DNA of 64,000 nucleotides from Rhabdophis nuchalis (lineage: Eukaryota > Chordata > Lepidosauria > Squamata > Natricidae), in contig CM077643.1 in NCBI GenBank assembly GCA_039707465.1, positions 201,339,605-201,403,604 of the forward strand, read 5' to 3'. The translations under genes and the position numbers were made by a program. The notes under the pieces were generated by a model. That model worked only from the letters and a program-made list of their open reading frames with translations. It had not been told where the DNA came from and did no database searches. How positions within the stretch are numbered: the stretch's first letter is position 1; every line of letters starts with the position of its first letter. This document shows positions 702-3,700 of the stretch, one piece after another.

Positions 702-3700
702 GCATTTGACTTCTTGGGAAATATTGGTGAGCAAAGCACCACTGCCACAAATACCAGCAAAAAATTGTGCCTTTCCAAGAAGAACTTACTTCAACTTCAC
801 TGCACCATTTGTGAACAAAAGGAAAGAATATTCAGAAAGAAGAATTATAGGGTTTGTATAAGAAAAATACATTGTACCATTATACAGAAGTAGATACTAA
901 TGGATTGCATTGATGAAAGCAGTCCTTCTCATTTTCAATTACCTTTACTCACATTGTTTATACTTAAAAGTTATGCTTATCTATTTCTTGAATTTTACAC
1001 TTTAATTTGAAATCATTTAAGCATTCCTTAAATTTTATTTGTTTTTTGTTTTTTTTTTTCATTATATGCTGTTGTTAATCCACTCAGCAGTTTACGGTCC
1101 TACTATATATAAACAGGATTAAAGTTCACAGGATATAATTTTTAGGGCAGCTCTACATTTGCGGAAGCAAATACAGTAATTCTAGTTTGGTATCATTGTT
1201 AGTTATTTATCAATGGGATATATTGCCCTTTTCTTGAGATAACGATATAGTATGTGTGTGTATGTATATATATTAAGGGAGGAGACATACTGTTTCCCTT
1301 GATCAGCTCATAAAACTAACACATATATCTAAAATATTATACAACGTAATTCTTGGCTTGCTGTCTGGATGGTCTCTAGTGATGAGCCGATAGGCAGTAA
1401 GGGGAACAGTATGTCTCCTCCCTTAATTGGGGCCTAATAACAGGTTGTTGTGAAACAATTACCTATACTAATATACCCTGTCTAAGCTGATGCAATAAGG
1501 AGAACCGGCTTGGCTACAGTGCTAGGCTACTTGCTTAGCATGCAAGAAAGCCCCGGTTCGAATCCCAGTAAGGGGTATGGCCAGCTGATGAGAGCTAATA
1601 AGCTCGAAATAGATCTATCCTGGTCTCTCTCTAATTTAATTTATTGATCAGCTCATAAAACTAACACATATATCTAACATATTATACAACGTAATTCTTG
1701 GCTTGCTGTCTGGATGGTCTCTAGTGATGAGTCGATAGGCAGTAAGGGAAACAGTATGTCTCCTCCCTTAATTGGGGCCTAATAACAGGTTGTTGTGAAA
1801 CAATTACCTATACTAATATACCCTGTCTAAGCTGATGCAATAAGGAGAACCGGCTTGGCTACAGTGCTAGGCTACTTGCTTAGCATGCAAGAAAGCCCCG
1901 GTTCGGATCCCAGTAAGGGGTATGGCCAGCTGATGAGAGCTAATAAGCTCGAAATAGATCTATCCTGGTCTCTCTCTAATTTAATTTATTGATCAGCTCA
2001 TAAAACTAACATATATATATATATATACCGTCACACCCCACCGCGGGGAGGCGGAACCGGAAACATCAAGTTGGTTCCGCCCCAGGCGCCTGATGGACCC
2101 GGAAAGGTTCCAGAGGGAGCTTGGGCCAGTACCTGTATCCCTGCCCCGCGGCTCGACTGAGGACCTAGTGGCCGCGTGGTATAGTGCGGCCACGGGGGCC
2201 TTGGACTGAGTCGCGCCCTTGCGGCCTCTCATGCGGCGTCGAGTCACCCAGGCTCCTTGGTTTACCGAGGAGCTTCGGGAGATGAAACGCCGCAAGAGAC
2301 GCCTAGAGAGTAGGTGGAGATCTTCTCGATCCGAAGCTGACCGAACACTAGTGAGAGACCATATTAGGACTTACTTAGTGGCGCTAAGAGTGGCCAAACG
2401 TGAGTATTGTGCCACCCTTATCGCGTCCGCGGAAAACCGCCCTGCCGCCCTGTTTGGGGTGACCCGCTCCCTCCTTCATCTGAGGCCGCGGGAAGCCCCT
2501 TTGCAGGGTCGAGCAGAGGAATTTGGAGTTTTCCTGCAGGACAAAATCTCTCAGATTCGGAACGAGTTGCCCTCCACTGAAAGTGACCCAGTCGAGGTGT
2601 CCGGTGCTGGTCTTGAGATTACACCTTGGGAGGAGTTTGACTTTGTCACTACCGAGGATATGGACAGGTTGCGGAGGAACCTTAGAGCCACCACATGTTT
2701 ATTGGACCCGTGCCCCTCTTGGCTTGTACTGGCATCCTGGGAGGTGACACGAGGCTGGCTCCAGGGTATTGTGAATTCATCTCTGAGTGAGGGGTTCTTG
2801 CCTACCGTCTTGAAAGAGGCGGTGGTGAGGCCCCTCCTCAAGAAGCCATCCCTGGACCCGGCTTTATTAGAGAACTATCGTCCCGTCTCCAACCTTCACT
2901 TTTTAGTGAAGGTTGTTGAGAGTGTGGTAGCCCAACAGTTCCCTCGACACCTGGAGGAAGTTGATTATCTAGACACGCGCCAGTCCGGCTTCCGGCCCGG
3001 TCACAGTACCGAGACGGCATTGGTCGCGTTGGTGGATGATCTCTGGAGGGCTCGGGATAGAGGTTGCTCCTCTATCCTGGTCCTGTTAGACCTCTCAGCG
3101 GCTTTTGATACCATCGACCATGGTATCTTATTGCACCGATTGGGGGGGTTGGGGCTGAGAGGCACCTTTTTACGGTGGTTCTCGTCCTACCTCTCTGGTC
3201 GGTCGCAATGGGTGTTGGCAGGAGGGCAGAGGTCGGCCCCGAGGCCCCTCACATGTGGGGTTCCTCAGGGGTCGGTCCTCTCGCCACTTCTGTTCAACAC
3301 CTACATGAAGCCACTGGGTGAGATCATCCGTGGTTTTGGGGTGGAGTACCATCTGTACGCTGATGATACTCAGCTGTACATATCCACCCCAAACCACCCC
3401 AACGATGCCGTCGAGGTGCTGTCCCGGTGTCTGGAGGCCGTACGGGTCTGGATGGGTAGTAACAAACTCAAACTCAACCCGTCCAAGACCGAGTGGCTGT
3501 GGTTTCCGGCACCCCGGTTTAGCCAGATAAGTCCAACACTGGCCATTGGGGGCGAACATCTTGCCCCCGTGGAGAGGGCGCGCAACTTGGGCGTCCTCCT
3601 GGATCCCCGGCTGTCCATGGAGGACCATGTGGCGGCCGTGGCCAGGGGGGCGTTCTATCAGGTTTGCCTGATACACCAGTTGCGCCCCTTACTAGACCGG

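Follow-up and report, generated by a model that had tools for sequence, protein, structure and literature searches.

A tandem hammerhead unit with a tRNA-Ala-like promoter and fixed insertion ends in microsatellites

Here we describe a repeated element of approximately 345 bp found in a 64,000-nucleotide stretch of contig CM077643.1 (forward strand, positions 201,339,605 to 201,403,604; the window), each unit of which combines a tRNA-Ala-like promoter with a type I hammerhead ribozyme motif. Its copies in the genome form near-identical tandem arrays, end at fixed positions in microsatellites, and make up palindromes with paired ends, an anatomy shared with a young family of Penelope-like elements. 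The unit is probably a tRNA-promoter retrozyme, resembling a short interspersed element (SINE), for which Penelope-type machinery uses circular RNA as the template.

Tandem Repeats Finder (TRF) placed a repeat at 1299-2018 of the window with a period of 345, 2.1 copies, and 98% matches. Copies 1 and 2 are 98.8% identical over 342 bp, which bears out the head-to-tail 345-bp tandem that a first-pass annotation had read from the letters. The extent given there, 1301-1990, proved too small, as an inverted arm at 1272-1300 opens the insertion and its other end, 2018, lies in (TA)n. Searching the window with Rfam in E-value mode gave Hammerhead_HH9 at 1568-1641 and 1913-1986 on the plus strand, each at 35.2 bits and E 5e-7. 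The alignment covers the stems and the core and shows an internal loop in stem I that is compatible with HH9. With gathering thresholds applied the window yielded no match, as both hammerheads score below the 52 bits set for HH9. A strict type I descriptor picked out four sites, two with cuts after 1619 and 1964 and two on the minus strand at 4970 and 4519, whereas 200 first-order Markov resamples of the window gave 0. Three older copies in the window also match HH9 in Rfam (E 6.8e-6 to 3.4e-4), including the hammerhead at 5472-5544, which escapes the strict descriptor, and an array of subfamily B does so at E 7.6e-5. The covariance-model search that the first-pass annotation proposed is thus significant for the type I hammerhead it claimed in each copy, at scores under the gathering score, and the conserved core and three stems are those of a retrozyme hammerhead.

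We then consider the genome (1.92 Gb, 348 contigs), which was searched with a 34-base hammerhead pattern that left three stem II pairs, N7, and the loop bases free. The pattern had 10,486 exact matches (5,159 forward, 5,327 reverse), and the reversed pattern had 0 matches in the same genome; together with the HH9 E-value and the empty resamples, this rules out a chance hammerhead. Tandem arrays of the unit gave at least 181 matches from 39 scored candidates, and those of subfamily B at least 307 from 40, with 98-100% identity among the matches listed. A single local duplication is ruled out by these genome-wide arrays and by the pattern matches. The longest run, again among the matches listed, has 16 units on contig C3. 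For closer comparison 61 loci with units (L009-L069) and two Penelope loci (L070, L071) were fetched; these are best matches rather than a random sample, and part of those listed. Units running from cut site to cut site number 98 in 39 loci, most commonly 343, 347, or 348 nt long, and the tandem repeats lie within the 150-450 bp typical of retrozymes.

One subfamily A unit and one B unit agree at 217 of 336 aligned positions (65%), with 78% agreement in the hammerhead stretch, 9/10 at its 3' end, and 55-70% in the other stretches. A second stretch that is fairly conserved between the subfamilies lies at unit ~85-160 (window 1704-1779; unit numbering starts at the cleavage site) and reads GTCTGGATG..GGCAG..TCTCCTCCCTTAA. 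A search for relatives in viral contigs gave 9 matches to a loose pattern, about the chance level by rough judgement, and was set aside.

The outward ends of the insertions fall at unit 44-58 or 184-204 in 80 of 96 cases in A and 20 of 26 in B, or 100 of 122 overall, with the first kind (E1) breaking near unit 46 and the second (E2) near unit 188. A di- or tetranucleotide microsatellite follows 94 of the 100 fixed ends. The controls were the 22 other ends, 3 of which are so followed, and random positions, with a microsatellite at 428 of 20,000 in the window (2.1%) and 1,319 of 20,000 in the loci (6.6%). Unit ends lie in microsatellites, where target site duplications, which in metazoan retrozymes exceed 4 bp when present, cannot be told. 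The 5' ends are variable or fused to an arm of opposite orientation. Among 39 palindromic clusters both ends could be classed in 22, and 19 of these join E1 with E2; reading L027 and L028, which the script had split, from nhmmer raises this to 21 of 24 (P 1.4e-4, with about half expected if the ends were independent).

Within arrays, units are more alike than between them. Comparing only units of equal length, the 343-nt B units show 0 differences in 23 within-array pairs and a mean of 1.74 in 130 between-array pairs, and the 343-nt A units a mean of 0.65 within arrays versus 3.01 between. Shuffling the array labels matched this homogeneity in 0/5000 trials for B at 343 nt, 0/5000 for A at 343 nt, and 1/5000 for A at 347 nt. 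In L028, the 12 units on two opposite arms differ among themselves by one substitution, and a variant absent from all other aligned loci is present in both arms; such a pattern is expected if a single RNA molecule had been copied repeatedly from two DNA primers. Retroposition, which the first-pass annotation had suggested, therefore has its anatomy in these copies, in the form of fixed ends, microsatellite junctions, and near-identical arrays. The mean predicted unpaired probability at E1 and E2 is 0.80 and 0.69 in A (0.43 overall) and 0.76 and 0.55 in B (0.42 overall), and both putative priming sites are A/U-rich, as is the microsatellite that would serve as primer.

The likely partner is a Penelope-like element. 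Beside units in L021, L028, and L056 lie open reading frames (ORFs) that Pfam identifies as reverse transcriptase. In L070 and L071, 3/3 ORFs match RVT_1 at 4e-16 to 3e-13 and, more weakly, GIY-YIG at 2e-4 to 4e-4. Reverse transcriptase followed by a C-terminal GIY-YIG is the layout of Penelope-like elements. The L056 ORF has 102 scored matches in the genome, 77 of them at 95% identity or above and 88 without an internal stop (manual count); its neighboring copies include 10 minus-then-plus pairs and several tandem runs, with no plus-then-minus pair noticed. L071 is a palindrome with 1.7-kb arms; (TA)n flanks it at either end, and its two 3' ends differ. The Penelope-related 3' end runs into (AT)n in two forms, and the fetched loci hold 4 palindromic copies of it. 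Penelope-like palindromes in or near (TA)n were seen at L026 865-1090, L023 215-438, and L071, with alternative 3' ends ..CTAC and ..GAAAAC. The 3' end in L031 is tied to Penelope by stretches of 74-75% similarity beside the L070 and L071 reverse transcriptase ORFs. Two readings made by eye in L031 were dropped: a minimal hammerhead at 1240-1366 of the Penelope-type 3' region has no Rfam hammerhead match, so no hammerhead is claimed for it, and a long ORF that resembled a Penelope frame matches nothing in Pfam.

The hammerhead motif is under constraint. We compared 36 sequences (35 distinct) picked by a pattern tolerating one core mismatch, a choice that biases core conservation upward and pair changes less so. 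Across this set 97.5% of hammerhead cells are paired, and both partners have changed in 7 of 17 pairs. Slid controls give 0-3 such pairs, and shuffles reached 7 double-changed pairs in 11 of 500 trials and the covariation score in 0 of 500. Paired changes occur in each of stems I, II, and III, and through them subfamilies approximately 65-80% alike retain the hammerhead fold. In 99 of the 100 listed matches to the genome pattern, which all lie within the initial 30 Mb of a single contig and whose remaining core the pattern fixes, the free stem II cells pair in 294 of 297 (three pairs), and N7 of CUGANGA is A in 48, C in 31, and T in 20. Random decay of the core across copies, named by the first-pass annotation as grounds for rejecting the ribozyme, is at odds with the covarying stems and the 10,486 matches, some of the sets being preselected for the core.

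Each unit also has a tRNA-like region. The anticodon arm has a 5-bp stem, a 7-nt loop, and the anticodon AGC, and hammerhead stem I begins approximately 13 bases past the B box. Aligned to a tRNA-Ala(AGC) sequence, copies 1 and 2 score 56 and 54, whereas the best of 1000 shuffles of each copy reached 40 and 41. The B box GGTTCRAATCC has 4 exact sites in the window versus 0.01 expected, all 4 within copies of the family. ARAGORN found no tRNA in the window. The A and B boxes and AGC arm described in the first-pass annotation, which are also the mark of a tRNA-derived SINE, are therefore supported by alignment and by the B boxes, and are degenerate by ARAGORN and by the Rfam covariance model, with a substitution in the B box of copy 2. 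TTTT on the plus strand would stop RNA polymerase III (Pol III). It occurs in 1 of 31 distinct A/D units and 0 of 8 B units, so the argument for read-through holds for A/D and B only.

We propose that transcription is driven by the tRNA-Ala-derived internal Pol III-type promoter in each ~345-nt unit. With a promoter in each unit, a tandem insertion would be transcribable through at least two hammerheads, which are predicted from their motif to cut the transcript into unit-length RNAs. A host ligase would then close these into circles; RtcB circularises other retrozymes in vitro (PMC7229834). A Penelope-like enzyme acting in trans would use the 3' ends exposed where (TA)n or (CA)n microsatellites are broken to prime reverse transcription at two A/U-rich sites on the unit RNA. 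Copying round the circle would generate identical tandem units, and if both sides of the break act as primers, the insertion would be a palindrome that has E1 at one end and E2 at the other. The circle and the enzyme are what we infer as best supported by the insertion anatomy.

Several observations weigh against this proposal. Identical units could also arise if the template were the transcript of a homogeneous array that had stayed uncleaved. An end other than E1 or E2 occurs in 17 of the 39 palindromic clusters, two of these owing to splitting by the script. Identity between same-strand units is 97.8% in the window, 95.9% in L022, 92.8% in L011, and 88.2% in L013; these less identical pairs may be older or separate insertions. 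The promoter scores poorly against the Rfam tRNA model (11.8 bits, E 4.8), subfamilies B and C are weakly tRNA-Ala-like, scoring 37 and 34 where shuffles reach at most 30 and 31, and TTTT is found on the plus strand of 3 of 4 B3 units and 3 of 7 other distinct units. For the partner, the C-terminal GIY-YIG of the L056, L070, and L071 ORFs falls just below the Pfam curated cut-off, the L070 palindrome has a microsatellite near one end only, and a microsatellite directly follows 6 of the 21 matches that reach the end of the Penelope query, with at least 5 others of the 21 continuing into the second Penelope end form. Rfam at E up to 5 found no hammerhead in the Penelope 3' end, and the link to Penelope rests on shared anatomy.

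The predicted folds likewise count against cleavage. A lone 58-nt hammerhead has a z of -1.00, with 35 of 200 shuffles equally stable, and the minimum-energy fold of the hammerhead alone (57-58 nt) forms 11 of 14 pairs, with stems I and II and without stem III, which RNAalifold lacks as well. When the whole unit is folded as a circle, the minimum-energy structure of A keeps 5 of the 14 hammerhead pairs and that of B keeps 0. This masking of the ribozyme casts real doubt on cleavage. In unit A the hammerhead core at unit 309-317 (window 1928-1936) is predicted to pair with unit 26-34 (window 1645-1653), just upstream of priming site E1, and this pairing is a possible switch between cleaving and a closed circle. 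Given such folds, the ribozyme may form during transcription, or it may be switched off in the circle. Plant retrozyme circles are described as blocking their ribozyme by folding, and most metazoan ones as not doing so (PMC7229834).

An ordinary tRNA SINE whose single insertions were later expanded into satellites by unequal exchange, the hammerhead being a passenger, is an unlikely source of the unit. SINE-derived satellites are reported in squamate genomes (PMC10702118), exchange alone would also give homogeneity within arrays, and the hidden ribozyme would fit a passenger, whereas the same two end positions recur across array lengths and across subfamilies approximately 65% alike, the private variant of L028 sits on both palindrome arms, and the hammerhead stems covary. 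We also judge it improbable that the unit is mobilized by the L2/CR1-type long interspersed element (LINE) of the window (2031-4390) rather than by a Penelope-like element. LINEs can produce 5'-truncated and 5'-inverted copies, which we count in favor of this explanation, as we do L012 at ~1950-1980, where a LINE-like frame (by eye, with no Pfam match) runs directly into a unit lacking part of its 5' end, which may reflect a template switch. However, the window LINE, the sole copy examined, has no palindrome and a 3' end unlike either unit end, whereas young Penelope copies share the target, the palindromes, and the two paired ends with the unit.

A further explanation, that the unit represents what a Penelope-like element keeps as its terminal repeat (pLTR) once the coding part is lost, and not an independent tRNA-promoter element, appears very unlikely. 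It would account for the reverse transcriptase ORFs beside units in L021, L028, and L056 and for Penelope copies having the same target and architecture, but the sequence of the Penelope 3' end is unlike the unit, the unit carries a tRNA-like promoter instead, and it was not seen as a terminal repeat in L021, L026, L028, L031, L056, L070, and L071, the only loci checked. We retain the tRNA-promoter retrozyme, copied from a circle by Penelope-type machinery, as the preferred reading.

Features of the window are collected in Table 1. The older cluster at 4464-5547 is approximately 80% identical to the unit, with copies mutually inverted and CA, TA, or TATG repeats at their ends; its plus-arm copy at 5203-5547 stops at E1 within (AC)n. 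Between the young insertion and this cluster lies the LINE, with an RVT_1 match at 2210-4201 (4e-37). It has a 664-aa reverse transcriptase frame and sits inside microsatellite, so that several element types share one microsatellite. MicroRNA-precursor matches on the inverted arms are under gathering scores and reflect the palindromes. Farther along, at 39353-41330, is a minisatellite of approximately 2 kb with CTAC/CTAT-rich units of 43-59 bp, and repeats of a like kind apparently account for long frames in L030 and L040.

Table 1 Unit copies, hammerheads, and promoters in the window.
Feature	Position	Strand	Basis and remarks
Inverted arm of young insertion	1272-1300	-	unit ~125-153; 29/29 identical inverted; opens at TA/TATG-rich microsatellite
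Copy 1, 5'-truncated, unit 22-345	1296-1619	+	nhmmer; unit numbering starts at cleavage site
Copy 2, complete 345-nt unit, predicted cut site to cut site	1620-1964	+	TRF, nhmmer, descriptor
Copy 3, first ~54 bases	1965-2018	+	nhmmer; outward end E1 (..AAAACTAAC) passing into (TA)n
tRNA-Ala-like promoter, copy 1	1511-1565	+	A box 1511-1525, anticodon arm 1530-1546 (AGC), B box 1555-1565
tRNA-Ala-like promoter, copy 2	1856-1910	+	B box 1900-1910, G replacing conserved A
Type I hammerhead 1	1573-1629	+	predicted cut 1619/1620; Rfam HH9, descriptor, covariation
Hammerhead 1 stem I	1579-1584/1620-1625; outer 1573-1575/1627-1629	+	
Hammerhead 1 core	1585-1591	+	stem II 1592-1596/1601-1605
Hammerhead 1 GAAA	1606-1609	+	stem III 1609-1611/1616-1618
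Type I hammerhead 2	1918-1974	+	predicted cut 1964/1965; Rfam HH9, descriptor
Older subfamily C copies, hammerhead 4467-4539	4464-4597	-	nhmmer; Rfam HH9 31.9 bits
Older subfamily C partial copy, unit 7-217	4699-4911	+	nhmmer
Older subfamily C copy, minus palindrome arm, hammerhead 4918-4990	4915-5211	-	80% identity; HH9 32.1 bits
Older subfamily C copy, plus palindrome arm, hammerhead 5472-5544	5203-5547	+	80% identity; HH9 26.9 bits

A narrow literature search found no description of the unit's combination of features, and absence from print is not established by it. Penelope-like elements with minimal hammerheads exist. They resemble the unit in tandem and inverted arrangement, truncated 5' ends, and the link to a hammerhead; the unit differs in its length of ~345 bp, its fuller hammerhead, its tRNA-like promoter, and in that no coding frame was noticed. 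Sj-alpha is reportedly a schistosome SINE-like element beside Sm-alpha. The pairing of a tRNA with a hammerhead is already known from schistosomes, where the passages of PMC4918200 on Sm-alpha describe tRNA sequence and a hammerhead in one tandem repeat. The schistosome repeats belong to a fluke and their tRNA is given as Gln in the text or Glu in a legend of that paper, unlike the tRNA-Ala-like unit here. No paired-end rule was seen in those passages (PMC4918200), and the likeness drawn here is one of description.

Metazoan non-long-terminal-repeat retrozymes (Cervera and de la Pena 2020, PMC7229834) are alike in their type I hammerhead and non-coding tandem repeats of 150-450 bp, and the size of the unit RNA is similar. 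As presented in the parts of that paper on their biology, they have circular RNAs, and Penelope-like elements are suspected of moving them and proposed as a strong mobilisation candidate (PMC7229834). Unlike here, the vertebrate cases named in those parts are amphibians, and human and other mammalian hammerheads are isolated, not tandem (PMC7229834). A term search of the main text of PMC7229834 found none of "pol III", "SINE", "reptile", "lizard", or "microsatellite". Movement of animal retrozymes, by a circle and then a reverse transcriptase with a Penelope-like candidate, is so far a proposal in this source. Here, young copies in one chromosome-scale genome display the insertion products, and a young Penelope family leaves a similar mark, so partner, template, and priming rule become directly testable. 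This insertion anatomy and the evidence on the partner look new.

HH9, the unit's best-scoring Rfam family, is presumably one of the amniote intronic hammerheads, together with HH10. It is possible, though doubtful, that an amniote genome still runs a hammerhead RNA-circle retroposon, with Penelope rolling-circle copying into broken (TA)n and two-end priming at two fixed RNA sites, that each insertion is a possible new tandem or palindromic source, and that this lineage is the mobile stock of the domesticated intronic hammerheads. In the account given by PMC6155905, the amniote intronic hammerheads are conserved motifs held to have been domesticated from retroelements of lower animals, whereas the unit here is repeated and mobile. 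If the host is an amniote, the unit would be a living mobile relative of these conserved amniote intronic hammerheads.

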